DNA of 64,000 nt from Oligoflexia bacterium. GTDB lineage: Bacteria > Bdellovibrionota > Bdellovibrionia > JABDDW01. The position numbers were made by a program, and so were the translations under genes. The notes beneath the pieces are model-generated. The model did not search any database. It saw only the letters and a program-made list of their open reading frames with translations, and had not been told where the DNA came from. The stretch spans positions 1 to 64,000 of the forward strand of contig JAWXAT010000036.1 of assembly GCA_034439615.1 (NCBI GenBank). Reading direction: 5' to 3'. Of this stretch, positions 16,973 through 59,733 are shown piece after piece (positions within the stretch are counted from its first letter, which is position 1; every line of letters begins with the position of its first letter).

Positions 16973-17056
16973 GTGACCTCCTGTCAACATTGCGGTGTTG
17001 GCTGTCCGTCCAACTCCCGCGTAGAAGGGCCCCCTCGACGAGGACCAGCCCTAAGT

Positions 17057-18545: not shown

Positions 18546-18602
18546 CCTCTTCTACCTTTCACGTCGATTGCTTAAGGGGGAAATGCTCCCCCGATGCAAT
18601 CT

Positions 18603-20567: not shown

Positions 20568-20611
20568 TGAATTTCTCCTTTCTTTTATTCGTTTAACTTC
20601 TAATTTAACTT

Positions 20612-23132: not shown

Positions 23133-23139
23133 GGGCTAA

Positions 23140-24928: not shown

Positions 24929-24940
24929 TATCTATTCTCC

Positions 24941-41028: not shown

Positions 41029-41038
41029 TTTTTATCCT

Positions 41039-41656
41039 TCAAAGTTCTACAAAATTCTTAATTAACTGGATACCCACTTCTTGACTTTTTTCAGGGTGAA
41101 ATTGAACTCCAAAGATATTTTCTCTCTCAATAGCAGCTGTGAATTTCGCGCCATAATTCACGGTACACGATGTTGCTCCCGGCTCTTTAGGAACAAACAA
41201 ATAGCTATGCAAAAAATAAAATGATGCGTCTTGGGGTATTTTTTTAAATAATGGGGAATCATTTTTAAATGAAACGTTATTCCAACCCACGTGAGGAAGT
41301 CTTAACTTTTCTTCTCCCACTTCAATTTTTTTAACAACACCCGGTATAACACCTAAACCTTGGTGCTCACCAAACTCATAACCCACTTCCGACATAACTT
41401 GCATGCCGACACAAATTCCCAGACAGAGTTTTTTGTCAATCAACAGTGCTTTTCGCAAACACTCATAGAGATCTTTTTTACGTATACGCTCCATGGCATT
41501 ACCGTAAGTTCCCACTCCTGGAAAAACAATTTTTGAAGCTTTACTTAATGCAACTGGTGAATCGGAGGTTTCAAAATCCGCACCAATATATTCTAAAACA
41601 TTGGCTACTGATTGAATGTTTCCGATTCCTGTATCAAGAAGAATTATTTTGCTCAC
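41039..41656 (-). CDS. HisH-like glutamine amidotransferase (pse operon copy)
   Basis: About 205 residues of glutamine amidotransferase class I: catalytic Cys in LGICVGMQVM, His and Glu in FGVQFHPEKS. It is HisH-type by length and motifs (LDTGIGNIQSVANVLEYIG). GTG 41656 is chosen since its start overlaps the pseI stop in GTGA form; a TTG further up would lie inside pseI. There is no hisF here; a HisF-like partner is at 54098 or 55444. In sugar biosynthesis such HisH/HisF pairs supply ammonia to WbpG/PseA-type amidotransferases; histidine synthesis is less likely given the context. Confidence 0.85.
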   Translation of the reverse strand: MSKIILLDTGIGNIQSVANVLEYIGADFETSDSPVALSKASKIVFPGVGTYGNAMERIRKKDLYECLRKALLIDKKLCLGICVGMQVMSEVGYEFGEHQGLGVIPGVVKKIEVGEEKLRLPHVGWNNVSFKNDSPLFKKIPQDASFYFLHSYLFVPKEPGATSCTVNYGAKFTAAIERENIFGVQFHPEKSQEVGIQLIKNFVEL

Positions 41657-42702
41657 ACTAAATCCCAAGACATAGGTGTGCCTTTTTCTACATCTTTTTT
41701 TATTTTCTTACCTAAAAGTTCTGGCAAGTGTTTTGGAGCAAGTCCAAGACCAGGCCTTACACTTCGAATATTTTTGGCTGTTAAAACTTCTCCAGCTTTC
41801 ATGCTCTCAGCAATATATAAAGAACGCCTAAATTGAAGTGATGGTTTTTCGGCTTCTGTTGGGCCATACGAAACACTTCCAAGGCTTTGCCATGCGCGCT
41901 CTGTTTCAAGCACTAAAGACTGTAATTCATGGGGCTCAAGTGAAAACGCAGAATCAACACCACCATCTGAACGTTTTAACGTGAAATGTTTTTCAATAAC
42001 GGTTGCACCATGTGAAACAGCCGCCACAGATACGCCCACACCCATGGTGTGATCTGACAAGCCCACTTGAGTTCCTAAAATTTTACGCATATCAGGAATT
42101 GTTAAAATATTTGAATTTTGCGGCGTTGCCGGATACGTGCTAGTGCATTTTAGAACTACAATCTCTCTACAACCCTCTTCACGTGCAGCACTCACAGCTT
42201 CTTTAATTTCATCTATTGTAGCCATGCCCGTAGACATGATCATGGGCTTTTTAGTTTTTGCTACAAGTCTAATCAGTGGAATATCAACTAACTCAAATGA
42301 TGCAATTTTATAGAATGGAACATTGAGTGATTCTAAAAAATCTACAGATGTTGGATCAAAAGGTGTACTAAAACCGATAATTCCTAATTCACGACAACGA
42401 TCAAAGATAGGTTTATGCCACTCCCACGGTGTATGCGCCTCGTTATATAAATCGTGAAGTGATCGCCCATTCCAAAGACTTTTTGGGTCATTAATAACAA
42501 ACTCACCTTTTTTTACATTCAATGTAATCGTATCGGCGGTGTATGTTTGAATTTTTAAAGCCTGAACACCGGTCTTTGCAGCAGCATCAACGATCTCTAA
42601 AGCTTTCGTTAATGATTGATTATGATTACCCGACATCTCCGCAATAATAAACGGGCGATGTTTTGCACCAACAGTATTTCGACCCAATTGAATATCCATC
42701 AT
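41653..42702 (-). CDS. pseI: Pseudaminic acid synthase PseI
   Basis: PseI condenses 6-deoxy-AltdiNAc with phosphoenolpyruvate to form pseudaminic acid. The 349-residue protein has the NeuB-type TIM barrel (FIIAEMSGNHNQSLTKALEI at ~18-37, KIQTYTADTITLN, STGMATIDEIKEA) and the C-terminal SAF antifreeze-like domain (RRSLYIAESMKAGEVLTAKN IRSVRPGLGLAP). It overlaps both pseH and hisH by 4 bp. Pse versus Leg/Neu specificity is taken from the complete pse context. Confidence 0.92.
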   Translation of the reverse strand: MMDIQLGRNTVGAKHRPFIIAEMSGNHNQSLTKALEIVDAAAKTGVQALKIQTYTADTITLNVKKGEFVINDPKSLWNGRSLHDLYNEAHTPWEWHKPIFDRCRELGIIGFSTPFDPTSVDFLESLNVPFYKIASFELVDIPLIRLVAKTKKPMIMSTGMATIDEIKEAVSAAREEGCREIVVLKCTSTYPATPQNSNILTIPDMRKILGTQVGLSDHTMGVGVSVAAVSHGATVIEKHFTLKRSDGGVDSAFSLEPHELQSLVLETERAWQSLGSVSYGPTEAEKPSLQFRRSLYIAESMKAGEVLTAKNIRSVRPGLGLAPKHLPELLGKKIKKDVEKGTPMSWDLV

Positions 42703-43265
42703 TTTAAAAATATCTTCTCATGAAGTTCCTCTTTGTTTTTCAACCAATTTTCTTTCGTAAGCTGATAACTCTTTATGATTTCGTAGCGACCATCTTTTTC
42801 AACACCAGGTTTGTTAGTTTCAATAGGAGAAAAACCTAAGCGTTCATGAAATTTTTGACTGGCTTGATTTGATCCAATAGCTTCGCCATTAACCAGGTTG
42901 AGACCTAATTCTTCAAATCCAAAACTTAAACCCAAAAAACCAAGTGTCATGCCAGTTCCGATGGGTAAATCTTCTCTGCCCATATAAAATCCCCAATTTG
43001 CGGTATTATTATTTGTATCAATGCCTGTGAATTGCACAATACCAACGGGCTGGGATTGATACTCAAAAAGTCTGAAACAAACCTTTTTGTTTTCGGAAAG
43101 CTTTGCAAACCAAGCCTTATGTTCTTCCCAAGCAATAATATGCTCGGTGTACATCTGGATACGAACACGCGGTGAATTTCTCCACGTAAGTACTTGGCCC
43201 AAATCTTTTTCAGTAAGTTCTCTTAAACTACAATCTTCAAACTTATGTTGTGCTATATCCGCCAT
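42699..43265 (-). CDS. pseH: PseH-type N-acetyltransferase
   Basis: A GNAT acetyltransferase that N-acetylates the C4 amine of UDP-4-amino-4,6-dideoxy-AltNAc. About 188 residues: VLTWRNSPRVRIQMYTEHII near the start matches PseH/RimL-type proteins, NWGFYMGREDLPIGTGM carries the acetyl-CoA-binding region and FHERLGF is the typical GNAT C-terminus. I use ATG 43265 rather than the GTG at 43271 because the ribosome binding site spacing is better. It lies between pseG and pseI. Confidence 0.9.
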   Translation of the reverse strand: MADIAQHKFEDCSLRELTEKDLGQVLTWRNSPRVRIQMYTEHIIAWEEHKAWFAKLSENKKVCFRLFEYQSQPVGIVQFTGIDTNNNTANWGFYMGREDLPIGTGMTLGFLGLSFGFEELGLNLVNGEAIGSNQASQKFHERLGFSPIETNKPGVEKDGRYEIIKSYQLTKENWLKNKEELHEKIFLK

Positions 43266-43274
43266 AATCACTTT

Positions 43275-44294
43275 CTATTTCTGCAAAAATGCAATTAACT
43301 TGAGATGATTCTCATTTACCTGAGAACCATCACTTCCCATAATTTCAAAGGCACGATCACTCATATTTTTTAATTCTTGAGGATTATCTACGGCCCATCG
43401 AATTTGACTTCGCCAATCATCGATACTGACTTTTTGATGCCAGCCTAAATTTTGAATAATTCCTTTTTCAGCTAAAGCTTGTGACATTTCCACCTGATTT
43501 TCGGCAACCTGCACTGTTAAGGCCGGCAAACCTAAAAAACATCGCTCCCAAGTAGCTGTGCCTCCAGCCCCTAATGCCAAATCAGCTTGAGAAATAAGCT
43601 CTGCCATATTTTTAATTTGAACATGAAGTTTGGCTTGAGGCAATTGCTTCATTATATCTTGAATCTCACGACTGTGGGGATTCATACTCCCAATTACAAT
43701 ATCATAAGTAAGTTTTGGCTTATTGAGTTCAAGTAATGCACGCAAGGCCTTCGTGGTTTCGCCCGCCTGATCGGCTCCTCCAAAAAACAAGAGCAGCCTC
43801 TGCACTGCACCATCTCGAGTTTTAAGATTTTTTCTTGCCTCATAAAATTCAGGCCTCAAAAGTGCAAATGTTGGCCCCAAAAGAAGTTTACATTTTTTTG
43901 AGACAAGCTCTGCATAGCGAACTTCCATGTTTAAATAATAATTTTGGTCTAATAAAAGATCACATTCATGTGGACGGTTGGCTAAATCATCAATTACTGC
44001 GATCTTGCCAACATGGGGCGCCATTAATTTTTCCCACTGCGCATCAAGTTCATAGTGATCCACTATGAGAAAATCTGGTTTATCACTTAGTTTAATAATT
44101 TCTCTAATATCGTTTAATTCTAGAAATTCAAAATTTGAAGCCTTTAACTGCGCTTGCCAAGTTTTAGGTAACTGGTAACTTGCAAAAATAACCTTATGAT
44201 TTTTATTTTTTAAGGCTTGCGCAAGCGTAAGACAACGGACAATGTGTCCCGTTCCAATCTCAACACTTACATCTGTACGAATTAAATAATTCAT
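43275..44294 (-). CDS. pseG: UDP-sugar hydrolase PseG
   Basis: PseG removes UDP from UDP-2,4-diacetamido-2,4,6-trideoxy-altropyranose. The 339-residue protein has the MurG-like fold, with the diagnostic N-terminal GTGHIVRCLTLAQAL (residues ~14-28) in which the His is catalytic, VDHYELDAQW, DQNYYLN and LFFGGADQAGET (UDP binding), and LALGAGGTATWERCFLGLP. It overlaps the upstream fusion gene by 4 bp. Confidence 0.93.
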   Translation of the reverse strand: MNYLIRTDVSVEIGTGHIVRCLTLAQALKNKNHKVIFASYQLPKTWQAQLKASNFEFLELNDIREIIKLSDKPDFLIVDHYELDAQWEKLMAPHVGKIAVIDDLANRPHECDLLLDQNYYLNMEVRYAELVSKKCKLLLGPTFALLRPEFYEARKNLKTRDGAVQRLLLFFGGADQAGETTKALRALLELNKPKLTYDIVIGSMNPHSREIQDIMKQLPQAKLHVQIKNMAELISQADLALGAGGTATWERCFLGLPALTVQVAENQVEMSQALAEKGIIQNLGWHQKVSIDDWRSQIRWAVDNPQELKNMSDRAFEIMGSDGSQVNENHLKLIAFLQK

Positions 44295-46327
44295 CTCACC
44301 TTAAATAACGGTTCAAGTGGTTTACACTGCAATTGTTTTTCTAAATCACCATTGTTAATGGATTGGCTGATGATTCCAAATACTTCATCATATGTTTTTA
44401 AAAGGTGAGTAATGTCTTCATCTTTATGTGAATAACTCAAATTATGAGTTCCTAAAGTTAAAACACCTCTGAGAAAAATCTCTTGAAAAAATAAGGTCTT
44501 AATTTGCCAGACACTGTATTGGCTTTTGTCTTTAAAATTTAAAAACGACCAAGCGGGATTTCCGCTAATCGACAAATAAGAGCCTATATCGTACTTAGTG
44601 ATTAAAACTTCAACACCTTTTATAATCTTATTCCCTTGGGTTTTAAAATGTTCGATAACAGGTTCTTTTTGCATCTTCTCCATTGTTGCGAGAGCCGCTG
44701 CCAAAGATAATGTTTCGCCACCAAATGTGAATGAAAAGAAAATTTCTTCCATTAACTTCATGATTTCACGTTTACCTGCAACTGCAGAAACAGGAAAGCC
44801 ATTAGCTATTCCTTTACCAAATGTTGCAAGATCAGGTGTCACGCCAAAAAATTCTTGAGCACCACCTTTTGCGAATCTAAAACCTGTGATGGTTTCATCA
44901 AACACAAGTACTGCACCATTTTCAGCAGCTAAATCTTTTACACCTTGAAGAAATCCTACTTTGGGCTCAGTCACATTCATGGGCTCTAAAATAACTGCAG
45001 CTATTTGATTTGGAAATTCTTGAAAAATCTTTTCTAAAGAACTTAGATCATTATATGTAAATGTATGGCTTAAATCACGGGTTGCCTTTGGAACTCCCCG
45101 ATTACGCGCAGTTGCCCCAATATACCAATCTTGCCAACCATGATACCCACACATCGCCACATGATCACGATTTGTATAAGCGCGAGCTAACCTAATTGCT
45201 CCAGATGTTGCGTCAGAACCGTTTTTCCCGAAGCGCACCATTTCAGCACAGGGAACCATCTCTTTGATTTTTTCAGCCACCTGCATTTCAAGTGGGTGCG
45301 GGAGAGTGAAAATCACACCGTCTTCTAGTTGATTGCGAACGGCATTATTCACATCTGAATCACCATAACCTAAATTCACAGCACAAAGACCATTAACAAA
45401 ATCAACGTATTTATTTCCATCAACATCCCAAACATGACAGCCCTTACCTTTTTGTATGAAATAGGGGGAAACACCTAATGGGTACTGAGTTTTACTTTTA
45501 CTAAAAGTTTGACTGCCAAGTGGTATGGTCTGTGTGGCTCTTGTAAGTAAACTTAGCGATTTTTCATAACGCTTTTGATAGATGTCTTTTTTTAATGACA
45601 CTTCAAAGCCCTCATTTCTTTTTGTATTTTTGTTAAGATTTGAAACTTGAGGATTTTTTTCTAAGAAATTTATTATATCATCCATTCCAAATTTTTGATT
45701 CTCAGGATACAAACTTGAATAAACTTTTTCTACTAATTCAAAATCAGCTGCATTATCGACAGTCCAGCGCATATGTGAATGATCTTTTTTATTTTTATAA
45801 TGTGAAATTTTAAACCGTGAAGGTTGTGAATGAATAAATGGAGTTACATGCTCTCGCTGTGAAGTTAATTTAGCTTCATTCCATGCTTGCTTGAGAACAT
45901 CAAACTCAAAGATTTCAACATCTAGGCCATCGGGAAAAGTAGGCTCAATTGCATTACTTGTGTATTGGGCTTTTTCTTTTAAATGAAAGGCAATCACTTC
46001 ATCAATGATCACAGGGTCAATAAGTGGGCAATCACCAGTTAACCTTACTATGTGCTCGGGTTTATTTAAAAGGGCTGCTTGATAAAACCGATCTAATACA
46101 TCATCAAGGCTGCCGCGAAAGCACTGAATATCGTGTTCACGACACATTTTTTCAATAGCGTCATCAGTAGCATCAACACTTGTTGCCACGATTAGCTGAG
46201 AAATCATTTTTGATTGTTTCACACGCTGAATTTCATGAAGAAGCATAGGTTTATCTAAAAGATTTTTTAAAACTTTACCTGGCAATCTTGATGAGGTGAA
46301 GCGCGCCTGAAGTACGGCTAAGATCAT
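44291..46327 (-). CDS. Fused PseF cytidylyltransferase and class III aminotransferase
   Basis: A 678-residue fusion. Residues 1-~230 are an SpsF/PseF-type nucleotidyltransferase (MILAVLQARFTSSRLPGKVL, RLTGDCPLIDPVIID), which would activate pseudaminic acid with CMP. Residues ~270-678 are a class III PLP aminotransferase of the glutamate-1-semialdehyde aminomutase type: VNGLCAVNLGYGD, CGYHGWQDWYIGAT, LVFDETITGFRF and the PLP Lys in FGKGIANGFPVSAVAG. The usual pse pathway needs PseC (present elsewhere) but no aminotransferase on PseF. The second domain may transaminate a modified sugar or precursor. No frameshift or stop separates the halves, so it is a true fusion. Confidence 0.85.
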   Translation of the reverse strand: MILAVLQARFTSSRLPGKVLKNLLDKPMLLHEIQRVKQSKMISQLIVATSVDATDDAIEKMCREHDIQCFRGSLDDVLDRFYQAALLNKPEHIVRLTGDCPLIDPVIIDEVIAFHLKEKAQYTSNAIEPTFPDGLDVEIFEFDVLKQAWNEAKLTSQREHVTPFIHSQPSRFKISHYKNKKDHSHMRWTVDNAADFELVEKVYSSLYPENQKFGMDDIINFLEKNPQVSNLNKNTKRNEGFEVSLKKDIYQKRYEKSLSLLTRATQTIPLGSQTFSKSKTQYPLGVSPYFIQKGKGCHVWDVDGNKYVDFVNGLCAVNLGYGDSDVNNAVRNQLEDGVIFTLPHPLEMQVAEKIKEMVPCAEMVRFGKNGSDATSGAIRLARAYTNRDHVAMCGYHGWQDWYIGATARNRGVPKATRDLSHTFTYNDLSSLEKIFQEFPNQIAAVILEPMNVTEPKVGFLQGVKDLAAENGAVLVFDETITGFRFAKGGAQEFFGVTPDLATFGKGIANGFPVSAVAGKREIMKLMEEIFFSFTFGGETLSLAAALATMEKMQKEPVIEHFKTQGNKIIKGVEVLITKYDIGSYLSISGNPAWSFLNFKDKSQYSVWQIKTLFFQEIFLRGVLTLGTHNLSYSHKDEDITHLLKTYDEVFGIISQSINNGDLEKQLQCKPLEPLFKVR

Positions 46328-47216
46328 AACTTACCCCACAGACCTGGGTTTAATATTCTTACATCTTCAAATTTTGAGGCAGAGGTAAGTTTTTTAATTT
46401 TTGATGAGTAATTTTGAACTTTACCAACTGCGCTTAAGATTTCTTTAAATTCTGTAGTGTTGTTGACACCAACAATGACGCGATCGATTTCTTCTTGCAT
46501 AAGAACAAATCCTAAAGCTGCCTCTAAAACAGTAAGACCTTCAACCTTTACACTGAGATTGAGTTTTTTAAGATGCTCACAAACTATTTCTAAATGAGAC
46601 GGCAATTGATCAAAATCCATAAGCAATAGGCCTTGTAAGAATGCTGAGCGCCCATGAATTTCAATACCTGCTTGCTTAAGTTTTTTAAGATGCCCACTTT
46701 CAATAAGTCTTTGATCTAAAATATTAATAGGGACTTGAACAATATCAACTCCACCCATATCTAAGAGCCAATCGATTTGTTTTTCATCATAAACGCTAAC
46801 ACCGATTTTTTTTACTAATCCCTGTGATTTGAACTCTTGCATTTTTTTAAAGAGACGCGTGCCGCCAGAAGCAATGAGATCGTCAGGCTGATGAATAAGT
46901 AAGGCATAAACAAAGTCTTGCTTAAGATGTTTAAGAGACGTATGAAAAACCTCTTCTAAACGAGAAATTTCTTTTTCTCCAACGGGTCTTTTTCCAAAGG
47001 TGTCCGTTTTTGTTACGATCTGCCACGGAAAATTCAAAGGCAATGCTTCGCCTAAAACTTCTTCACTGCTACCGTATAGTGCTGCTGTATCAAGGCATTG
47101 AATATTGTTTTCACGTGCTAAATTTAAGATTTTTTTCACTTCATCAATGGGAGTTTTCCCATGTCTATTGGCAATTCCATAATTCATTCCAAATTGAACA
47201 GTGCCTAAGCCTAATT

Positions 47217-47220
<4 letters not shown>
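46324..47220 (-). CDS. Aldo/keto reductase in the pse operon
   Basis: A 298-residue aldo/keto reductase with the catalytic tetrad in usual positions: Asp and Tyr in CLDTAALYGSSEEVLG, Lys in IVTKTDT, His in LLIHQPDD. It also has a typical NADP-binding C-terminus (VLMQEEIDRVIVGVNN). It overlaps pseC and the PseF fusion by 4 bp each, so it is translated with the pathway. The substrate is unknown; reduction of a keto-sugar intermediate for a variant nonulosonate is a guess. Confidence 0.88.
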
Positions 47221-49378
<2,158 letters not shown>

Positions 49379-49669
49379 TCACTTCACATTCTTATTATTT
49401 TTGAGTTCGTGCTGTTCTTTTTTTAATTCTGATTCCATATGATGAACTTTTTTACGACTTTGACGATAAACTTCTCTGACAGTTTCATAACCCGTTGGAG
49501 GCAAAAATTGCCTCAAAAGTTCAGCACCCAAAATTCGATACTGACCACCGATTTTGGCCGCTCGAATTACACCACTTTTGATCAAACGGCGCATGGTTGA
49601 CTGAGAAATTTGCAGAAGTTTTTCAGCTTCTTCTCTCGTGTATATCTGATTATCTTTAATTTCAAGCAT
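49379..49669 (-). CDS. Excisionase-type HTH protein preceding pseB
   Basis: A small DNA-binding protein, 96 residues from ATG 49669 (MLEIKDNQIY...). Its excisionase/MerR-like HTH (YTREEAEKLLQISQSTMRRLIKSGVIRAAKIGGQYRI) spans residues ~10-45. A charged, probably helical C-terminal tail (YRQSRKKVHHMESELKKEQHE) follows. An in-frame TTG at 49696 would extend it by 9 residues into the TTGAC repeat element, so I reject that start. It is 6 bp upstream of pseB and directly downstream of an element shared with 58015-58046. It is a plausible local regulator of the glycan genes. Confidence 0.8.
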   Translation of the reverse strand: MLEIKDNQIYTREEAEKLLQISQSTMRRLIKSGVIRAAKIGGQYRILGAELLRQFLPPTGYETVREVYRQSRKKVHHMESELKKEQHELKNNKNVK

Positions 49670-49674
49670 ATGTA

Positions 49675-49706
49675 AAAACCTATCAATTCTTGTCAAAATA
49701 AGTCAA
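49675..49706 (-). promoter_or_regulatory. TTGA-repeat element, copy 1 (before the HTH gene)
   Basis: On the minus strand three direct repeats follow each other every 10 bp: TTGACTTATT, TTGACAAGAA, TTGATAGG. The 32-bp segment matches 58015-58046 at 30 positions. It ends 5 bp before ATG 49669. Direct repeats at one helical turn are a usual protein-binding layout. The TTGACT/TTGACA repeats could also be -35 boxes. Confidence 0.65.
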
Positions 49707-49721
49707 TTTTAATCAACAATG

Positions 49722-50375
49722 CTACCTCTTCCCGCAATAGGCGATGATGTCTCTACCCACCTTTGCTTGTGCGCAGCCCTTTCTAAAATTAATTAAATTT
49801 TCAATATTGATACTACCAAGTAAATTTTCAAACATAACTCTTGCAAGGTGACATTTTTTGCCTTTCAGAGGATTTTTTTTATAATTCGAATCTGGGTTAT
49901 ATAGAAAAACATCAACTGGAAAATCACAAAGCATTTCTATAATGCGAAATTCAGCCGCATCCAAAATTTTTAAAAAACTATCTACATTAAAATAATTTAA
50001 ATGTTCGGGCACTGACACCCAAAATTCAGGATCAGCGAATTCCCTTTCAACAACATCCCTTTGTAGAATACTGTCATCATTTGGGACGACAATACGACAT
50101 ATGCCATCAACAGATAATATTTTTCTTATCTTTTGAAGCAGAGCAAAAGGGTCAACAACATGTTCAAGAACGTTATTGCAGATAATTAGATTGTATTCTC
50201 TTTTTTCCAATACTAACCGATCGATGGTGGCAAATAGATTCCCTGTCATAATATATTTCTCAAAACTTGGAAAAAATCTTTTGATTCCATCCAGCGTAAA
50301 GTCAGCACCCTGAACATTCCATCCACGTTCATGAAAAAAATTAAGACTAAATCCTTCACCGCAACCAAGATCCAA
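49722..50375 (-). pseudogene. Methyltransferase, 3' part (after frameshift)
   Basis: Begins with the SAM-binding motif I (LGCGEGFSLNFF) and continues through IICNNVLEHVVDP (motif II-like) and EFWVSVPEHLNYF to the normal end. It lacks the N-terminal residues that precede motif I. These are encoded in the frame at 50246-50572, which shares coordinates but runs out of phase. The break lies at 50374-50380, in an AAATTTT run. Restoring one base would give a 280-290 residue class I methyltransferase. It probably acts on the glycan or its precursor. Confidence 0.8.
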
Positions 50376-50572
50376 AATTTACCGACTTTTTCTTTAGAAA
50401 AATACTGACACTCAATTGCGTCTAATAATTTATGCTTTATTTCTATTTCACTATATGAAGCCTGATACTCTTCACTGGCACCATAGTATTTATCATTATA
50501 GTATTGTGCCAATTCATCATTTGTAGGTTTCGGACTAACTTCTAAAAATCCAAATTTGCTTCGTTTTAACAT
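50246..50572 (-). pseudogene. Methyltransferase, 5' part (before frameshift)
   Basis: From ATG 50572 (MLKRSKFGFLEVSPKPTNDE) the frame encodes the N-terminal part of the methyltransferase up to YFSKEKVGK at about 50381, then reads out of phase (FWILVAVKDL). The N-terminus resembles that of the methyltransferase at 51902 (PRPTPEILKAHYTN ... against PKPTNDELAQYYND). The ATG overlaps the stop of the preceding gene. Confidence 0.7.
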
Positions 50573-51483
50573 TTCGTTTCCGCTGGTAAATGAAAAAAGC
50601 ACAATAATGTTAATATATCTGGCTCATAAACATTTGGATAACGTGTAAAATCAATGTGACAACCAGTAAGAGCATTATCCCAATGTGCTTGACGCTTTAG
50701 AATCATGCACAAAAGACGATTATCCATTTTTGCTACAAGACACGGCTCTATTTTCTTTACGTCCTTTGCTACAAAATGAGTGTCTGACGAAGAAAGGTTG
50801 AAACTAAAGTATTCTTCTTCCAAATCTATATAGATGTTCCACTTTAAGCTGCTCTGTAATTTAGTAGATTGTATATTCCAGAGATGCATGCGTGCTGGCT
50901 GTAATGATTTTCGGATGAAGCGTTTCAATTCATTCGAAGCTTCTGTATCTAAATCGAACTCATAGGAATACTTTAGAGATCTCAATACAGAACTGATATA
51001 TTCTGTCATTGCGTGTTCATCAATTGGTACATAGGTACCATTGGTAATTTTTTCTGTCACAAGATCAAATGTTAGCCCTTCATTAAGAACCAATGTCTTT
51101 TGCTCGTGCAACTCAGAAGTTACAAATTGCGCAGCTTTATCCCAGGTAACATGGGCTAAAAATCGATTTCTATCCCATAATTTTCCACCCAATACATAAT
51201 GCCCGGCAAATGGCATCATGTATTTAGGTTTCAATATTTTTGTAATATCGACCAGATGTTTTAAGTTCTGTTTAATAATTCGTTGTTTTTCAGTTAATTT
51301 TTCAACATCTGTAAGATTGCTATAGCAAATTGGATAATCGCCAGCTGCATTATACAACAATTGAGCAACGGTAAATGACCCATGCTTTTTTACCAACATC
51401 TTAGCAGCATTAACTGAAAGCATATTGTCATTGGAATTGAGTATAGAATACTTTTCGGTTTCAATAACAAGAGCACTATCAAT
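50566..51483 (-). pseudogene. MBL-fold protein, C-terminal part (after in-frame stop)
   Basis: The frame continues without shift past the TAA at 51484-51486: 20 codons (IDSALVIETEKYSILNSNDN) lead into ATG 51423 and 285 more residues. The ILNSNDN segment and the flanking DSALVIE match the second half of MBL-fold proteins related to CMP-Neu5Ac hydroxylase and UlaG. Reinitiation at 51423 could make the C-terminal domain alone. It ends within the methyltransferase start. Confidence 0.8.
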
Positions 51484-51888
51484 TTAATTTCCAATAGTAG
51501 AACTATGAAAAACATGTTTCTCAAACGGCGCATAAATAGTTAGTTTATAAGGACTCAATTCAATACTCTGTCCATCTGGAAGTAAAATAATATTTTCAAA
51601 CCCAAGTTTTTGGACCATGCGCTCTAAATAATTGGGTTTAGAATCTAATAAAATAATGGGAATATTTTCTGGAAGGAGAGAAAGCGTCTTACTTTCAAAA
51701 TGATCTGGGTGGAGATGACTTAAATAAATTGCATCCACATTGTTTAAATCTATGGGCTTTGTTTTAAGTGGTGGATAATGACACCATGAGCCTTCGAATG
51801 CGCCATCAAAGAGCCAAGGATCTGACAAAATACGAAAACCAGACTCCTCAACTATACAACTGGCATTAGCAATAAACGTTAGTTTCAT
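51484..51888 (-). pseudogene. MBL-fold protein, N-terminal part (ends at in-frame stop)
   Basis: 134 residues with a metallo-beta-lactamase fold start: LTFIANASCIVEESGFRILS DPWLF, then the metal-binding SHLHPDHF (~61-68). The frame stops at TAA 51484-51486, exactly where homologues continue with a conserved DSALVIE-type strand. The rest is encoded in the same frame downstream. A point mutation (or an error) is the simplest cause. The intact protein of about 440 residues would be a sugar-modifying hydrolase or oxygenase-like enzyme; its substrate is not known. Confidence 0.8.
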
Positions 51889-51901
51889 GGCTCTTTCTCT
51901 T

Positions 51902-52903
51902 TCAGTTTGGTTTACGAGCTATTATCATCATGTTTGATGATAACCCAGAAGCTGTCAAAAAATTTTGAAAACCATCTCTAACATCTCTACTCTCATCTAA
52001 TAAAATGCGTTTAATGAAAGGATCAACTACAATAGATTCCTTCTTTTTATCCAATAGACGGGACGCAACAATATCGCAATCTAGTACGCCAGGGGTTTTA
52101 ACCTCAACCACTTCAAAACCAACACGGCTTACGAGTAGACTTAAAGATTCAGGCAAAAAATAATTAAGATGCTCATAATCTACGCTGTCGGAAAAACGAC
52201 CTAACATTTGAGTTTCAAAACCATTTATATTTGGACAGGTAAGAACAATAAATCCATTTGGCTTTAATATATTATAACAATTTTCTAAAAAAGCTTTCGG
52301 CTCAAATAAATGCTCAATAACTTCAAAGCTCACAACTACATCAGCTGCTGAATAAAATTTTATATCTTCAATTACCGACTCAATAACCTCTATCCCTTGT
52401 TCACGACATATTTGGGCGAGGTGCGGCGTAGGCTCAATTCCAATAATTTTCTTGAAAACATTTAATTCCTTCATCTTCTCGCAGAAAAATCCAAAACCAG
52501 ATCCAACTTCAATAAGCAACTCTGAACCTACATTGTATCGCTTACTGATTTCTGAAACTAATTTTGCACGCGGTGCAAATATTTTTTCTTTCCTAGTTAC
52601 AGCTGTCATTGGGAAAAAATATTTTGCCCAATATTCATAATTGGCAGAATTTGTATAGTGGGCTTTTAAAATTTCTGGAGTAGGACGAGGAGAAATATAT
52701 TGGGTTTTACAATTGTCACATATCACAAAAGTCATCTCGTACTTTATATAGGCGAGAGTATATTTATCAAAAGCACAAGCGGGACAGGGCACCTTTACGA
52801 ACTCAGCCTTTCTCTTTTGCAAAGCTTTTAGATCAATAGCGATAGCTGTTTCATGACCCAGCTCTAATGCTTTAGGGCTGATATCTTCATATAATAATGA
52901 CAT
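51902..52903 (-). CDS. Zn-ribbon SAM methyltransferase
   Basis: A 333-residue protein. Residues ~37-70 hold a zinc ribbon (CPACAFDKYTL ... CDNCKTQYISPRPTPE). A class I methyltransferase domain follows: LLIEVGSGFGFFCEKM (motif I), VVSFEVIEHLFEPKAF, ILKPNGFIVLTCPNI. The layout is the Methyltransf_13/23 type often found in sugar biosynthesis clusters. The target may be a nucleotide-sugar or glycan; that is inference. It lies 53 bp from the amidotransferase upstream. Confidence 0.85.
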   Translation of the reverse strand: MSLLYEDISPKALELGHETAIAIDLKALQKRKAEFVKVPCPACAFDKYTLAYIKYEMTFVICDNCKTQYISPRPTPEILKAHYTNSANYEYWAKYFFPMTAVTRKEKIFAPRAKLVSEISKRYNVGSELLIEVGSGFGFFCEKMKELNVFKKIIGIEPTPHLAQICREQGIEVIESVIEDIKFYSAADVVVSFEVIEHLFEPKAFLENCYNILKPNGFIVLTCPNINGFETQMLGRFSDSVDYEHLNYFLPESLSLLVSRVGFEVVEVKTPGVLDCDIVASRLLDKKKESIVVDPFIKRILLDESRDVRDGFQNFLTASGLSSNMMIIARKPN

Positions 52904-52956
52904 TATTTACACTCCAAATGCATAAAGTTTATTACCAGTTAATAGGTGAATTTTTC

Positions 52957-54087
52957 TCACTTTTTTTGATCCCAGAGATTTGCTTTTATCCAAGTTCCAC
53001 TTTTATCTTTTGACCAAACTCGTTTATCTCTAAAGGTATCGGCAATGCGGTCAAAATCAGCCTCACTCATGCCTACATAATCTAGCCAATTATAGATATC
53101 GCTTGATTTCACATGATCATATTTACGAACCATCTCAACACCTTGTTCGCGGGTCATATAGCCTTTACGAATATCTTTAGAAGCATGATCAGAAGCGCGA
53201 CCATAGCCGAACTTGATATACTTTAAATAATCATGCCCACCGTTTTCGTGAATATCATCTAGATTTGAAAACATACGATAAGTTCTTTCAAAAGACTGAC
53301 GCGCTTTTTGAAATCCATATTTTTCTTCAACTAATTTTGAATGTTTGTTTTCATCCCATTTAATATAATTACCAACATACAAACCACGAATACCAACACG
53401 CTTGATCTCATCATCTGATGGGTAACGCGCCCACAGCAGATCTTTAGCTTCAAGCCCTTCAGTGCCCACAAAGTCAAACCAATCAAAACCGCGTTGACCA
53501 TGTTCAAGACGTTCACGGGCACTCATTTCTGGAAAATCATCGGCACCAAACATGCCAGAGATATCCCAAGGTGTTTCACCCCAAATAATAATAGGAATAT
53601 TTAATTTTGCCGCAGTCTGTACGGGGTAAGAATAAATTCCACAATGATTATGCCAATTCATATCACCAGTTTTTATAAAACCTGCGCGATTGAGTTTTTT
53701 AAGCATTTCCGTACTTGGTCTAAAAATCATATGATCTACGCCAAAAACGTGGCGCATGTTTAAAAGATTTTCTTCACCTTCGGGCAAAAATCGATTGCCA
53801 TGATAAGTAACTAAAAGGGGATTAAGTTTATAAACATTCTTAATCAAATGAGTTTGCCAGTAACTGTCTTTTCCACCTGAAACAGGAATAATGCAGTCAT
53901 AGTTATCTTGTTTTTTATTTCGGTAAGATTCTAAAAGCTCTCCAAATACTTTTTCTCTTTTACTCCAAAAATCAACTGGCAGCTTTTCAAACTCTTCGTA
54001 CGAACGACAAGCAGAACAAACTCCGTCATCATCGAGTAAAAGGTTGACCGCAAGCTCTGGATACACACACCTTGAACAATAACGCAT
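52957..54087 (-). CDS. N-acetyl-sugar amidotransferase 2 (WbpG/PseA-like)
   Basis: A 376-residue PP-loop ATP-pyrophosphatase with SGGKDS (~72-77) and an N-terminal zinc-binding MRYCSRCVYPE ... GVCSACRSYEE. It belongs to the N-acetyl-sugar amidotransferase family (TIGR03573), which makes acetamidino groups with ammonia supplied by HisH/HisF-like partners, as in PseA and WbpG. Copy 1 is at 56813. This copy follows HisF 54098 by 10 bp; its glutaminase partner may be the orphan hisH at 41039. Confidence 0.88.
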   Translation of the reverse strand: MRYCSRCVYPELAVNLLLDDDGVCSACRSYEEFEKLPVDFWSKREKVFGELLESYRNKKQDNYDCIIPVSGGKDSYWQTHLIKNVYKLNPLLVTYHGNRFLPEGEENLLNMRHVFGVDHMIFRPSTEMLKKLNRAGFIKTGDMNWHNHCGIYSYPVQTAAKLNIPIIIWGETPWDISGMFGADDFPEMSARERLEHGQRGFDWFDFVGTEGLEAKDLLWARYPSDDEIKRVGIRGLYVGNYIKWDENKHSKLVEEKYGFQKARQSFERTYRMFSNLDDIHENGGHDYLKYIKFGYGRASDHASKDIRKGYMTREQGVEMVRKYDHVKSSDIYNWLDYVGMSEADFDRIADTFRDKRVWSKDKSGTWIKANLWDQKK

Positions 54088-54097
54088 AAGTCCCCTC

Positions 54098-54898
54098 TTA
54101 GCTTAGACCCTCAGATCTAAAATTCAGACCCGCATCTACAAGAAATTTTTTAGCCTCTAAAATACTTTGCTCTTTATAACTAAAAATATTTGCTGCGGCC
54201 ACAGCTGAAGCCCCACCATTTGTGATTCCTTCAGCTAAGTGCCCCCAATTGCCAACACCGCCACAAGCAATAACTGGAATATTCACAGCGTCTGAAACTT
54301 TCTTAATTAATTCGATATCATAACCCTGTGCTGTCCCATCACGATCCACTGAGTTTAGAAATATCTCGCCAGAACCCAATTCTTCACCTTTTTTCGCCCA
54401 CTCAACAACATCAAGCTCTGTGGCGGTTTTTCCACCTCGCATGACGATATGCTTACCCTGTTCATTTAATTTTGCATCGATGGAAAGAATAATACATTGA
54501 GAACCAAATTCCTTAGCACTTTCAGAAATAAACTCAGGCCTATCAACAGCAATGGTGTTCACAGTAATTTTATCAGCACCAACGGAGAGACGCTGACCGA
54601 TATCTTCTAATGTACGAATACCACCACCGAATGTGAGGGGCATAAAACATTTTTTTGAAACATCTTTGATAATATCTAAAATATTGGTGCGTCCATGAAG
54701 TGCAACGTCATCTCGACCAATACCCGCATATGCACCAGGAGTCATATCGATATAAACAAGCTCATCCACACCCCACTGATTGTAGCGATCAACAGCCACA
54801 ATGGGGTTTCCCAGCAATTGATAGCGCTTAAAGCTTCGGCTTTGAACCAAAACTCCATTACGCAAAAACAAACAGGGAATCATACGATGTTTAAGCAT
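54098..54898 (-). CDS. HisF-like cyclase (glycan copy 2)
   Basis: A 266-residue TIM-barrel protein like the synthase subunit of imidazole glycerol phosphate synthase (MIPCLFLRNGVLVQSRSFKR, FGGGIRTLEDIGQRLSVGAD, INTIAVDRP, SVDRDGTAQGYD, CGGVGNWGHLAEGI). The His-biosynthetic motifs are mostly conserved, but in this context HisF-like proteins form an ammonia channel for the amidotransferase. It overlaps the GNAT gene by 8 bp. Confidence 0.85.
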   Translation of the reverse strand: MLKHRMIPCLFLRNGVLVQSRSFKRYQLLGNPIVAVDRYNQWGVDELVYIDMTPGAYAGIGRDDVALHGRTNILDIIKDVSKKCFMPLTFGGGIRTLEDIGQRLSVGADKITVNTIAVDRPEFISESAKEFGSQCIILSIDAKLNEQGKHIVMRGGKTATELDVVEWAKKGEELGSGEIFLNSVDRDGTAQGYDIELIKKVSDAVNIPVIACGGVGNWGHLAEGITNGGASAVAAANIFSYKEQSILEAKKFLVDAGLNFRSEGLS

Positions 54899-55442
54899 TA
54901 TTTTTTATTCCACTCTTATAATCTGAGAATTTAATACCTAATAAAACCACGTCGGTTTCTTTACCGTCGCAGATGGCTTGTCCGCGAAGTAAACCTTCAC
55001 GTTGCCATCCGCACTTTTCAAATGCGCGAGCACTGCCTTCGTTTTCGCTGTAACACCCAGCTTTTAATTTATTAAGTGCTAATTTTTTAAATGCATACTC
55101 TGTGACAAGACCAATGGCCTCTGAGGCAAAACCTTTACCCCATGCACTTTTTTCGCCGATAACTAAACTCACATCTGCTGATTTATGGTGTGGGTTAATA
55201 GGCCCAAGCTTAATGTTTCCAATATGTTCATGTGTTTCATTCACGCAGATCGCAAAAAATGGTTCATCTTTTTTTGAAATCATTTTTTCAACATACGAGC
55301 GAACATCATTTAGACTTTGAGGAGAAAAACGCACTTCTAAAAACTTAGTGACCTCAGGGTCATTCATCCAGCGGTGATACCGCTCACCCACATCACTGAG
55401 TGCAACAGGTCGTAAGTAAAGTTTTTCACCTAAAAGTTTCAT
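54891..55442 (-). CDS. GNAT acetyltransferase (RimJ/L type)
   Basis: A 183-residue GNAT protein: LGEKLYLRPVALSDVGERYH RWMNDPEVTKFLEVRF at the start and the acetyl-CoA pocket KSAWGKGFASEAIGLVTEYA. It ends FEKCGWQREGLLRGQAICDG. It resembles PseH- and RimJ-type transferases; in this cluster it probably N-acetylates a sugar intermediate. It is sandwiched between the two HisF genes with overlaps on both sides, so it belongs to the operon. Confidence 0.85.
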   Translation of the reverse strand: MKLLGEKLYLRPVALSDVGERYHRWMNDPEVTKFLEVRFSPQSLNDVRSYVEKMISKKDEPFFAICVNETHEHIGNIKLGPINPHHKSADVSLVIGEKSAWGKGFASEAIGLVTEYAFKKLALNKLKAGCYSENEGSARAFEKCGWQREGLLRGQAICDGKETDVVLLGIKFSDYKSGIKNNA

Positions 55443-55443
55443 C

Positions 55444-56202
55444 TCATACCTTTTTAAAATTCAAATCGTAATTGCTTAAAAATGCTTTTGCTCGAATAGG
55501 ATTATTATCTCCAAAATTAAAAAGACTCCCACACGCTAAAGCGCTCACACGTGTTTCAAGAAATGCTAGTTTCATATGCTCATAAGTTCCAGCACCACCA
55601 CAGGCAATCACAGGAACCGAAGCACACTTCATTACCCGCGAGATAAGACCCAAATCATAACCAGTCATGGTGCCGTCTCGGTCAATGGAGTTAATAAAGA
55701 TCTCCCCTGCTCCACGCTCTATCAAATCTTTGACATGATTCTCTAAACTGACATTTTCACGTTTGGTTCCACAATTTGAGTGAAGAACATATTCCCCATT
55801 TTCAAAACGCGCATCAATAGACGCAATTGCTGCTTGCGCACCAAACTTATCGGCGATTTGAGTAATGAGATTTTTATTTTCATAGTTTGATGAATTCACA
55901 ATAACTTTATCAGCCCCGTTTTTAATGAGCTGTTCTGCATCTTCTAGCTTCACAATGCCCCCGCCAAAAGAAAGGGGCATAAAACAAACTTCTGAAACTT
56001 TTTCTATTAACGCAAGAAGCGTATTCACAGAGCGGTTTTTTCGATTGATATTTAAAAAAACCAATTCATCAGCATATTGAGAATTATAAACCCGAGAACT
56101 TGCCACGGGGTCACCCACATCCCGGTGGGTATCAAACTTTGCCGTTTTCACAAGTCGGTCATTCATTAAAAGCTGTACAGGGATGATTCGTTTTTTCAGC
56201 AT
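55444..56202 (-). CDS. HisF-like cyclase (glycan copy 1)
   Basis: A 253-residue TIM barrel starting at ATG 56202 (MLKKRIIPVQLLMNDRLVKT); a longer in-frame codon at 56214 lies inside hisH. Motifs: MPLSFGGGIVKLEDAEQLIK, NSSNYENK, FINSIDRDGTMTGYDLG, IACGGAGTYEHMKLAF. It differs from copy 2 in many places, so this is an old duplication. It overlaps hisH (56196) by 7 bp and is the natural partner of that protein. Confidence 0.85.
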   Translation of the reverse strand: MLKKRIIPVQLLMNDRLVKTAKFDTHRDVGDPVASSRVYNSQYADELVFLNINRKNRSVNTLLALIEKVSEVCFMPLSFGGGIVKLEDAEQLIKNGADKVIVNSSNYENKNLITQIADKFGAQAAIASIDARFENGEYVLHSNCGTKRENVSLENHVKDLIERGAGEIFINSIDRDGTMTGYDLGLISRVMKCASVPVIACGGAGTYEHMKLAFLETRVSALACGSLFNFGDNNPIRAKAFLSNYDLNFKKV

Positions 56203-56816
56203 TTGCCATCCCAATCACAGAAATTCTCTAAAAGCCTTAAACCATTGGCTTGGCTTTTTTCAGGATGAAATTGAAACCCCAGCACATTGTCTTTACCCAC
56301 AATGGCTGAAATCTTATCTCCGTATTCAACTGTTGCTAAAAGATCTTGTGAATTTGCGCATTCATATTGATAAGAGTGCACGAAATAAAAATCCACACCA
56401 CTTTTTACTTTATCAAAAATAGGATGCTTAGAATTTGTCAGTTCAATATTATTCCAACCTACATGAGGAATAGCTAATCCAAGAGACTCATCAAGCTTTA
56501 AGACTTTTCCCGGAACCAGTTTTAACCCCGGCATAATGCCACCTTCATCACCACTCTCAGAAAGGATTTGCATACCGAGGCAAATTCCTAAAACAGGGCG
56601 ACCACTTTTTGCAAAAGTACTGATGGCCGTTTCTAATTCAAATTTTTCAACTTGTTTCATGGCTGTGGTGTACGAACCCACACCTGGGATAATCAAATGA
56701 GTTGCATCTTCGAGTTTTTGAGCACCGCGTGCGATTTCAAAATCAAAACCAAGACTATATATGGCGTTTGAGACTGATCTGAGATTTCCCATGTCGAGAT
56801 CGACGATGGCGATCAT
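56196..56816 (-). CDS. HisH-like glutamine amidotransferase (glycan copy 1)
   Basis: A 206-residue class I glutamine amidotransferase: MIAIVDLDMGNLRSVSNAIY start, catalytic Cys in LGICLGMQIL, His/Glu in LGFQFHPEKS. It overlaps its HisF partner by 7 bp and the upstream amidotransferase by 4 bp. Together, amidotransferase, HisH and HisF form the standard acetamidino-transfer module. Confidence 0.88.
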   Translation of the reverse strand: MIAIVDLDMGNLRSVSNAIYSLGFDFEIARGAQKLEDATHLIIPGVGSYTTAMKQVEKFELETAISTFAKSGRPVLGICLGMQILSESGDEGGIMPGLKLVPGKVLKLDESLGLAIPHVGWNNIELTNSKHPIFDKVKSGVDFYFVHSYQYECANSQDLLATVEYGDKISAIVGKDNVLGFQFHPEKSQANGLRLLENFCDWDGKC

Positions 56817-57967
56817 TTAGACTCCCGATACCATTTATCAAAATCCCAAGTCTTAGGTGAGCTTTGGATATTGTTAAAATCAGGGCTAAACGGAGGAATC
56901 ACTGTTTTACGAACAATGTCATTAAACTCTTCTTCACTTAAACCGAGATATTCTAAAAACAAAAGGAGAGAAGGTGGCTTTCTCCCTTCAAATTTATTCA
57001 CTAACTCATCTGCTTCTTTTTTATCAATGCGCTGATTACGTAAATCAAGAGCTGTCATTTGTGTTACACGAGAGTACCCACGCTTTAAAAACTTAATGTA
57101 GTCTCGCACTCCTTGCATATAACATTCGATTTTTTCATACGGGTATTTCCCGGGAGGCATACCTTCAACGTCATCACCCTTCCAACCAAGCTCTGATTGA
57201 ATTTCAGCAACGTTTTGTTTTACATCCCAGGGAATAAATGAACCCAAGCATACTGATCTGTATTTTAATTTTTTAAGATCATGGGTTTTTGGATAAGTGT
57301 AAGGAGCAAGATCTCGTTTATCTAATTTAAAATCATCTTTGATCATGCCCTCCATATCTTCAGCGGTGATTCCAAGATTTACGAAACGATTAAATCTTGT
57401 TTCATCTACTTCTTCAATTTCATCATCACGGTAATCATAATAAGCAGTGTATTCAGAAGAGGGCTCACCCCAAAGAACAAGTGGAGTGTTATATTTAATT
57501 GCTACGTGCATGGGGTAAGAGAAAATTCCTGTGTGGCAATGCCAACAAAAATCACCTTTACGAATTAATGCCTCAAGCATCAAACGCTTAACGACTTTCC
57601 AGTTAGGCGTGAAGCTAATTACATCAACACCTAATTGTTTAAAAGTGCGCTCATTATTTTTTAAAAGAGTCTCACGCATAAAGCCGTGGTTGAACTGAAC
57701 AACCAGAGGTTTAACTTTATATTCCCGAATTAAATAATTAAGTGTGAAGGTAGAATCTTTTCCACCTGAAAAAGGCACCACACAATCGTATTCATATTTA
57801 CCTCGATACTCTTCGATGAGTCCGTCTAAGATTTTTTTTCGCGCGGGCCAATTAATTGTGGCGTCTTTAAAGTTTTTTTGGCGACAGATATTGCAAACCA
57901 TCTTCTCGTCAAACTCGATGGTTTCATATGTTTCAGGAAGTCCACATTTGATGCATTTCTTAAGCAT
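56813..57967 (-). CDS. N-acetyl-sugar amidotransferase 1 (WbpG/PseA-like)
   Basis: A 384-residue protein with PP-loop SGGKDSTF (~65-72), a zinc-binding start (LKKCIKCGLPETYE ... MVCNICRQ) and the conserved FCWHCHTGIFSYPMHVAIKY. It belongs to TIGR03573 like copy 2. It is the first gene of the minus-strand block. Upstream (58015-58046) lies the TTGA-repeat element shared with the HTH/pseB promoter region. Confidence 0.9.
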   Translation of the reverse strand: MLKKCIKCGLPETYETIEFDEKMVCNICRQKNFKDATINWPARKKILDGLIEEYRGKYEYDCVVPFSGGKDSTFTLNYLIREYKVKPLVVQFNHGFMRETLLKNNERTFKQLGVDVISFTPNWKVVKRLMLEALIRKGDFCWHCHTGIFSYPMHVAIKYNTPLVLWGEPSSEYTAYYDYRDDEIEEVDETRFNRFVNLGITAEDMEGMIKDDFKLDKRDLAPYTYPKTHDLKKLKYRSVCLGSFIPWDVKQNVAEIQSELGWKGDDVEGMPPGKYPYEKIECYMQGVRDYIKFLKRGYSRVTQMTALDLRNQRIDKKEADELVNKFEGRKPPSLLLFLEYLGLSEEEFNDIVRKTVIPPFSPDFNNIQSSPKTWDFDKWYRESK

Positions 57968-58014
57968 GAAGTACTCACCTTCGTAGGATCTTGTTTAATC
58001 TTGACTTAATGACT

Positions 58015-58046
58015 AAAACCTATCAAGTCTTGTCAAAATATGTCAA
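58015..58046 (-). promoter_or_regulatory. TTGA-repeat element, copy 2 (upstream of the amidotransferase operon)
   Basis: Minus strand: TTGACATATT, TTGACAAGAC, TTGATAGG, with the same 10-bp spacing and the same flank (ending GGTTTT) as at 49675-49706; 30 of 32 positions agree. It lies 48 bp before the start codon of the first gene. The most economical reading is a shared operator for the HTH protein encoded at 49379-49669; this is inferred from sequence only. Confidence 0.65.
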
Positions 58047-58134: not shown

Positions 58135-58923
58135 ATGCAAGATCTTGCCACTGAAGAAAAAGTAAAAAAATTCTATGAATCCCAAGGCTGGGCTGCAGAC
58201 CAAACAGGCTCAACCACAGACGCCAAACTGTGGGAAGACCTAAGACCCATGGCGCAAAAATATGTTGCAGCCTGTCGCCGAAAACTTCTCAAATATCTTC
58301 CGAAAAATGGAGATCTATTCTTAGACTGCGCTTCAGGGCCTATTCAGTACCCAGAATATCTTGAATACTCCCAAGGCTTTAAAAAACGAATCTGCGTTGA
58401 TATTTCTCAACGCGCATTAGATGTAGCACAAAAAAAGTTAGGCTCTCGAGGCGAAACCGTTTGTGCCAGTCTCTTGAATTTGCCATTTCCGGATAATCAT
58501 TTTGACGCGGCTGTCAGTTTACATACGATTTATCATATCGACCAAACTCAACAAGAAACTGCGGTTCGCGAACTTCTACGCGTAGCAAAACCTGGTACAC
58601 CAATTGTGATTGTGTATTCTAATCCAAATCGGCTGTTGGCTCGCATGAAACGCTTCGTTAAGCCTGAACCAACACCTACCGAAGATAGCGAGCGCATTTA
58701 TTTTTATGCTCACCCGTTAAAATGGTGGAAGCAGTTTGAAGATAAAGCTGATGTAAAAACGGTTGCTTGGCGAAGCCTTACGGCCAAAGATGCCAAACGT
58801 TTGATTCCCGGAAATAAAAGTGGCGAAGTTATGTTGAATGCACTTTTAAAAATCGAAACTTATCTTCCAAAATTCATGGCAGGGCTTAGCGCTTACCCTC
58901 TAATTATTCTCACCAAAAAATAA
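58135..58923 (+). CDS. Class I SAM methyltransferase
   Basis: A 262-residue methyltransferase, divergent from the amidotransferase operon. Motif I is LFLDCASGPIQYPE, which lacks the common GxGxG, followed by ICVDISQRALDVAQKKL (motif II) and LPFPDNHFDAAVSLHTIYHI. The rest fits the Methyltransf_11 type. It may modify the sugar or lipid made by the divergent cluster; the substrate is unknown. The end overlaps no gene; about 125 bp of sequence without clear features separate it from the coiled-coil gene. Confidence 0.85.
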   Translation: MQDLATEEKVKKFYESQGWAADQTGSTTDAKLWEDLRPMAQKYVAACRRKLLKYLPKNGDLFLDCASGPIQYPEYLEYSQGFKKRICVDISQRALDVAQKKLGSRGETVCASLLNLPFPDNHFDAAVSLHTIYHIDQTQQETAVRELLRVAKPGTPIVIVYSNPNRLLARMKRFVKPEPTPTEDSERIYFYAHPLKWWKQFEDKADVKTVAWRSLTAKDAKRLIPGNKSGEVMLNALLKIETYLPKFMAGLSAYPLIILTKK

Positions 58924-59049
58924 TTCTCAAATCCAACTATTCGAATCAATGGCCGAATTTCGGATGCACCGACTTCAGCAGCATTTAAACGCCAGATTAG
59001 AGTTGTCTGACTTTGCAGTTCATTGTTAGAACTTAACAAGGAGAAGAAA

Positions 59050-59733
59050 ATGTCAGCCGAACTTGCACTCATTGTCCGAACTGAAATCGAATCAGCTATT
59101 GCTCCACTCAGAGCTGAGCTCAAATCCGAAATCCAATCGGCTATTGCCCCACTCAGAACTGAGCTCAAATCCGAAATTGGTTCTCTCAGAGGTGAATTCA
59201 AAGCTGAACTAAAATCCGAAATTGGTTCTGTAAGAACTGAGCTAAGCGTTGTAAAGAGTGATATCAGTGAATTGAAATCCGGACTCAACTTAGTCAAATC
59301 TGATCTCAGTGTAGTAAAGAGTGATATCAGTGAATTGAAATCCGGACTCAACTTAGTCAAATCTGATCTCAGTGTAGTGAAGAGTGATATCAGTGTAGTG
59401 AAGAGTGATATCAGTGAATTGAAATCCGGGCTCAACTTAGTCAAATCTGATCTCAGTGTAGTAAAGAGTGATATCAGTGAATTAAAATCCGGGCTCAACT
59501 TAGTCAAATCTGATCTCAGCGTTGTGAAGAGTGATATCAGTGAATTAAAATCCGGCCTTGCTTATGTACGTGCTGACATCATCGAAATGAGCACCAAAAT
59601 CGATACAGCTCTTGATCTAAGTAACCGCGTTATAATTCATGAGCGGGTACAAGATGACGCCCTTACACGATTAGCCAGAGTTGAACTTGATCTTCGAGTT
59701 CTAAAATTAGCCTTGATGAATAAACCACATTAA
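59050..59733 (+). CDS. Repetitive coiled-coil protein, 227 aa
   Basis: ATG 59050 follows an AAGGAG ribosome binding site. Residues ~10-65 are a first series of short repeats (SAIAPLRAELKSEI types), and residues ~66-177 consist of five 21-residue units (SVVKSDISELKSGLNLVKSD plus one) with one extra 7-residue block. Each unit is three heptads, giving a long regular coiled coil. The last ~50 residues are less repetitive. No signal peptide is visible, so a cytoplasmic structural or scaffold role is likely. DNA-level identity between units is high, so repeat number may vary. Confidence 0.8.
   Translation: MSAELALIVRTEIESAIAPLRAELKSEIQSAIAPLRTELKSEIGSLRGEFKAELKSEIGSVRTELSVVKSDISELKSGLNLVKSDLSVVKSDISELKSGLNLVKSDLSVVKSDISVVKSDISELKSGLNLVKSDLSVVKSDISELKSGLNLVKSDLSVVKSDISELKSGLAYVRADIIEMSTKIDTALDLSNRVIIHERVQDDALTRLARVELDLRVLKLALMNKPH
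59245..59580 (+). repeat. 63-bp tandem repeat inside the coiled-coil gene
   Basis: Five copies of a 63-bp unit, with an extra 21 bp in unit 3, encode the 21-residue heptad units. Units differ at few positions (for example GTAGTAAAG or GTAGTGAAG). Near-identity suggests recent expansion by slippage or recombination. Confidence 0.85.

Follow-up and report, generated by a model that had tools for sequence, protein, structure and literature searches.

A small winged-helix gene and ten-base direct repeats at two surface-glycan operons of an Oligoflexia bacterium: a candidate self-controlling regulator

The window analysed here, a stretch of 64,000 nucleotides from an Oligoflexia bacterium (assembly GCA_034439615.1, contig JAWXAT010000036.1), carries two glycan operons, termed the pse operon and the amidotransferase operon, which run in the same direction from 58.0 to 40.0 kb (Table 1). 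The former is headed by a small helix-turn-helix (HTH) gene, and one copy of a repeated element lies within the 52 bp that separate the end of the latter (49722) from the ATG of this gene (49667-49669). The amidotransferase operon closes with a methyltransferase gene that is disrupted as if by a frameshift, leaving two overlapping frames, which reflects either decay or an assembly error, and this gene is adjoined by a broken MBL-fold gene, in which a stop near 51484-51486 leaves frames of 134 and 285 codons; the broken pair lies just upstream of the HTH promoter. Elsewhere in the window, a coiled-coil ORF is built of 21/42/63-bp tandem repeats and is faced by a long mirror ORF on the opposite strand. 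A flagellar cluster, assigned by eye, is situated approximately 13 kb from the pse operon, so that the pseudaminic acid may serve to glycosylate flagellin.

Table 1. Features of the window, with predicted elements marked as such.
Feature	Coordinates	Strand	Description	Basis
Regulator (HTH) gene	49379..49669	-	96 aa; HTH_17 / BldC-like winged HTH with C-terminal helix (predicted)	PF12728, TIGR01764, predicted fold
pse operon	39982..49372	-	after the regulator: pseB, pseC, aldo/keto reductase, fused nucleotidyltransferase-like/aminotransferase, pseG, GNAT, pseI, HisH-like, protein without Pfam match (39982-41028)	
Amidotransferase operon	49722..57967	-	WbuX, HisH, WbuZ/HisF2-like, GNAT, HisF-like, second WbuX, methyltransferase, broken MBL-fold gene, broken methyltransferase	
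Operator 1	49675..49716	-	four TTGAY units at 10-bp steps: TTGAT 49712-49716, TTGAC 49702-49706, TTGAC 49692-49696, TTGAT 49682-49686; contains the common 32-bp element (copy 1) 49675-49706	direct reading
Operator 2	58015..58046	-	three TTGAY units: TTGAC 58042-58046, TTGAC 58032-58036, TTGAT 58022-58026; copy 2 of the 32-bp element	
HTH-pse promoter (predicted)	49677..49706	-	-35 TTGACT 49701-49706, 18-bp spacer, extended -10 TGA-TAGGTT 49677-49682	consensus scoring
Operator 2 promoter (predicted)		-	-35 TTGACA 58041-58046, 18-bp spacer, extended -10 TGA-TAGGTT 58017-58022	consensus scoring
Split methyltransferase gene	49722..50602	-	two overlapping frames	
Broken MBL-fold gene	50566..51888	-	two frames	
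Coiled-coil ORF	59023..59733		tandem repeats	
Mirror ORF	58893..59507		opposite strand to the coiled-coil ORF	
Flagellar cluster	15686..26596	-	flgE, flgD, fliK, fliJ, fliI, fliH, fliG, fliF	by eye

Both copies of the 32-bp element are found on the minus strand. The sequence-only reading from which this work started had described them as identical at 30 of 32 bases, with TTGA units at exact 10-bp steps, one copy preceding the HTH gene and pseB and the other the amidotransferase operon, and all of this was confirmed: the runner-up match to the 32-mer in the window has 10 mismatches, the first copy possesses one unit more than had been listed, and the second stands ahead of a WbuX-type amidotransferase gene. 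The end of copy 1 is separated from the ATG of the HTH gene by 5 bases, while copy 2, located within the divergent gap 57968-58134 and oriented towards the amidotransferase operon, ends 47 bp from its gene.

Within the window, TTGACN5TTGACN5TTGA with at most two mismatches gives 5 matches, where 0.89 are expected from shuffles. The proposed genome-wide search, scored by pattern only, revealed the exact TTGAN6TTGAN6TTGA arrangement at these two sites alone (three overlapping matches in a genome of 3,001,738 bases), and the reversed-pattern control gave none in the whole genome; likewise, a 22-base core with at most three mismatches returned the same two places only. A common element occurring at unrelated promoters, which had been named as grounds for rejecting a local regulon, was thus not observed, the three-unit pattern being present nowhere else in the genome. 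The looser two-unit pattern YTGACN5TTGAY is too common for use, with 35 matches in the genome, 31 of which are away from both sites.

The promoters given here are consensus matches with predicted starts, and in both the -35 hexamer coincides with one operator unit. The -10 of the HTH-pse promoter lies 7 nt from the ATG, from which a leaderless mRNA is predicted, while the corresponding distance at operator 2 is 49 nt. The mechanical ORF listing places the start of the HTH gene at TTG 49696; the ATG is the likelier start, since it agrees with the homologs.

The encoded protein of 96 residues contains an HTH_17/excisionase-type domain (PF12728, E 1.7e-12; TIGR01764) and no other recognised domain, followed by a long predicted C-terminal helix (residues 58-93). 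The best solved fold matches of its predicted model (pLDDT 84) are the BldC-DNA complexes 6ama and 6amk, with an rmsd of 1.3-1.7 A over about 50 residues, and RdfS and Pukovnik Xis rank lower; the shortness of the domain keeps the E-values of this fold search modest, at about 0.01. No match emerged when the PDB was searched with a sequence profile, so the link to BldC is drawn from the predicted fold and a weak profile alignment. In that alignment R28, which is invariant in 15 of 15 family members, falls on R30 of BldC; the BldC sequence used agrees with the residues K26, R30, L43, H46 and L58 named in PMC5859096.

The HTH protein has no close paralog in its own genome, and the gene is absent from nearly all genomes of its own phylum, among which 369 genomes yielded one further match, a weak one. 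Homologs were found in SAR324 (66-71% identity) and in Margulisbacteria, WOR-1 and Saganbacteria (45-62% identity), the profile matching in 4 of 52 SAR324 and 20 of 74 Margulisbacteria genomes. Directly upstream of the SAR324 and Margulisbacteria homologs, (T/C)TGAC repeats recur at 10-bp steps. Across 27 upstream regions, pairs of (T/C/G)TGA(C/T) stand 10 bp apart 30 times, 20 bp apart 17 times and 30 bp apart 13 times, where random segments of the same loci, taken as controls, gave means of 0.55, 0.34 and 0.45, and in-phase units occur at 23 of 25 non-duplicate loci. The unit consensus is close to WYTTGACANNWT, in which TGA itself was the criterion for selecting units. The fourth SAR324 genome, G252, has TTGA units at 8-, 10- and 11-bp steps; the homolog of G151 lacks upstream repeats, and G221 shows a 21-bp spacing. 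Three Margulisbacteria genomes (G203, G155 and G214) possess two HTH copies each, both accompanied by separate repeats and followed by different operons.

The co-occurrence of repeats and gene was assessed with a pattern that combines two units and a -35/-10 pair; immediately ahead of the HTH gene, it matches in 10 of the 20 gene-carrying Margulisbacteria genomes. The 54 gene-free Margulisbacteria genomes gave two pattern matches, neither of them operator-like, and thus no credible case. The other matches (L105, L106, L093, L095, L096 and L027) were set aside, being within genes or beside a convergent unrelated gene; L093, L095 and L096, which come from gene-carrying genomes, are within genes encoded on the opposite strand. 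Where the pattern could detect sites, their number in each relative equals that of its HTH genes, from which the second operator in the present genome looks like a local addition.

The homologs mostly head surface-polysaccharide or nonulosonic-acid operons. The first gene behind them encodes a Wza-type export protein (8 cases), PseB (5), GDP-mannose dehydratase (Gmd; 3), UDP-sugar dehydrogenase (3), LegB (2), a sugar epimerase (2), an UpxY-like antiterminator (2) or another product (3), where several Wza, Gmd and PseB assignments and the second UpxY were made by eye or BLAST. The two antiterminator genes, of the UpxY/RfaH-like type, belong to the SAR324 genomes G149 (L012, 10295-10858) and G252 (L083), the match in G149 scoring 94.9 against a cut-off of 100 bits, and their position behind the HTH gene suggests a two-layer control of these operons. 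Taken together, the sequence comparisons point to the regulator gene and its 10-base repeats jointly heading surface-sugar clusters in three or more bacterial groups that are distantly related.

In most homologs a simple sigma-70 score finds a near-consensus promoter whose predicted -35 hexamer is one of the repeats, the remaining units being placed at -40, -30, -20, -10, +10 or +20 from the -35, mostly in exact register; G149, G150 and G151 gave no convincing in-register promoter under the same score. The -10 ends 6-12 nt ahead of the start codon in 18 of 27 homologs, so near that any leader of the mRNA is expected to be very short or absent, and a leaderless start of the regulator gene is accordingly a feature that we infer for the family. 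The earlier suggestion of an on/off switch for surface glycan was not sustained, as both promoters in the window show weak inverted repeats only, with no strong palindrome or inverted repeat, and no recombinase was seen; a phase-type switch was dropped for the same reasons. Promoters that are close to consensus and whose -35 carries a repeat have instead the look of simple (auto)repression.

The simplest reason for the repeats to follow the HTH gene across phyla is that its protein binds them, which is strongly suggested by the sequence evidence. Streptomyces BldC assembles on direct repeats in head-to-tail fashion and uses Arg30 to read one base pair of every repeat, with a 9-bp operator consensus AATTXXXX(C) and one-turn steps also in the long smeA site (PMC5859096). 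BldC-family proteins have neither an effector domain nor the coiled-coil dimerisation domain of MerR; in the present protein the HTH_17 domain is the one recognised, but the long predicted C-terminal helix follows it. The protein resembles BldC in being an HTH_17-type winged HTH whose top predicted-fold match is BldC, in its promoter direct repeats about one helical turn apart with 2 to 4 per site, and in the conserved recognition-helix arginine. It differs in its WYTTGACANNWT-like TTGAC unit at strict 10-bp steps, in the predicted extra C-terminal helix, in a predicted -35 that is itself an operator unit, and in a putative control of one or two glycan operons as opposed to a large developmental regulon. 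In the explanation that we prefer, the BldC-like protein would bind the TTGAC repeats head-to-tail, with one protomer per helical turn, and would probably form oligomers along them. The bound row would shut out RNA polymerase by competing for the -35, so that the protein would repress the leaderless gene that encodes it as well as the downstream pse operon, with negative feedback setting the expression; in this genome, the second operator would put the amidotransferase operon under the same control. The proposed local regulon, comprising the HTH gene itself and both operons, is in this respect well supported by the repeats upstream of the SAR324 and Margulisbacteria homologs and by the uniqueness of the element in the genome.

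The explanation as a whole, from the protein row to the control of both operons, is regarded as moderately probable. Given binding, repression is quite likely the sign of the effect, since near-consensus promoters, a repeat on the -35 and units within the spacer favour occlusion and negative feedback. Weighing against the explanation as a whole are the departure of the 10-bp TTGAC unit from the 9-bp BldC consensus, the exceptions G151 and G221, the modest fold-search E-values together with the empty PDB profile search, and the extra units that many Margulisbacteria promoters carry 20-40 bp upstream of the -35, a place where activators also work.

Activation, with which those upstream units would also agree, is a less likely though not negligible alternative, according to which the same protein on the same repeats would either bring in RNA polymerase or alter the shape of the spacer, so that the glycan operon amplifies its own expression. 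The helical register of the units at -20, -30 and -40 from the -35 start in many homologs agrees with this, as does the weak -10 (TAGGTT) of both window promoters; most homologous promoters, however, come close to the consensus (TTGACA, TATAAT) and should work unaided by an activator, and in several a protein bound to the spacer units (+10, +20) would block the polymerase. Direct repeats 10-11 bp apart are often bound by response regulators, which lends some weight to the idea that another regulator, for example of the OmpR type, occupies the repeats and that the HTH protein is a passenger of the operon. Response regulators are indeed named as another class of direct-repeat binders (PMC5859096), but across SAR324 and Margulisbacteria the repeats are found with the HTH gene, the co-occurrence pattern shows no credible case in the gene-free genomes and the element is unique in the present genome, which renders this reading improbable. 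Still more doubtful is the possibility that the repeats are tandem -35-like hexamers boosting polymerase capture, or promoter relics, with no dedicated binder: the unit TTGAC(A) does equal the sigma-70 -35 consensus, yet its exact 10-bp register extends over up to 40 bp and is conserved only beside the HTH gene, and an effect on polymerase would not track one gene family.

That the protein is an excisionase of an integrated element, with the two repeats as arms of recombination sites, is scarcely credible and was dropped, since the HTH_17/excise domain, weak PHROG excisionase matches and the near absence of the gene from its own phylum are set against homolog repeats at the promoters of glycan operons, no relatives in 2.9 million viral contigs and no integrase noticed among the window ORFs, a part of which was family-scanned. 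With excisionases and recombination directionality factors such as lambda Xis, Pukovnik Xis and RdfS, some of which also regulate promoters, the protein shares the predicted winged-HTH fold and, putatively, the formation of oligomers along DNA, whereas RdfS showed no consensus motif (PMC11963761) and a clear sequence unit is present here.

Other known regulators offer partial parallels. MamR of magnetotactic bacteria (NF040990), the top NCBIfam match by score, is similarly a small HTH_17 protein whose gene belongs to an operon devoted to a cell structure, but the score of 44.7 bits is far under the family cut-off of 100 bits; the DNA site and mechanism of MamR are not described in PMC3905215. 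UpxY/RfaH-type antiterminators are likewise dedicated regulators encoded by the first gene of surface-polysaccharide operons, although they are unrelated proteins that act on the elongating polymerase, whereas the present protein would act on promoter DNA. Classical MerR regulators differ in their palindromic operator and 19-20 bp spacer, compared with the direct repeats and scored spacers of 16-18 bp found here.

The BldC mechanism class is already known; as far as could be tested, what is new lies in the operator, its -35 register, the probable lack of a leader on the regulator mRNA and the association with glycan operons. No description of excisionase-type regulators of pseudaminic-acid, exopolysaccharide or polysaccharide operons was found in the open-access literature, subscription journals lying outside this search. 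A broader reading, to which we give even chances, is that of a horizontally moving, cross-phylum control cassette for surface-glycan operons, consisting of a leaderless BldC-like gene behind a promoter whose -35 is a unit of its own 10-bp array, in which the sigma factor and the regulator row would compete for one hexamer and a further operon could be captured by a new copy of the array.

To our knowledge, next to nothing has been established on how uncultivated bacteria control the transcription of nonulosonic-acid and polysaccharide operons, and few BldC-like proteins have known sites. Such proteins are reported to be widespread (PMC5859096). The regulator and its binding site can here be recognised jointly from sequence alone, which provides a directly testable protein-DNA pair, and a conserved unit of strictly 10 bp, kept in helical register, would reveal a route by which row-forming proteins attain specificity. 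The overlap between unit and -35 suggests a simple path in which an operator grows out of a promoter element, and the findings point to a previously undescribed, self-controlling regulator of cell-surface display.
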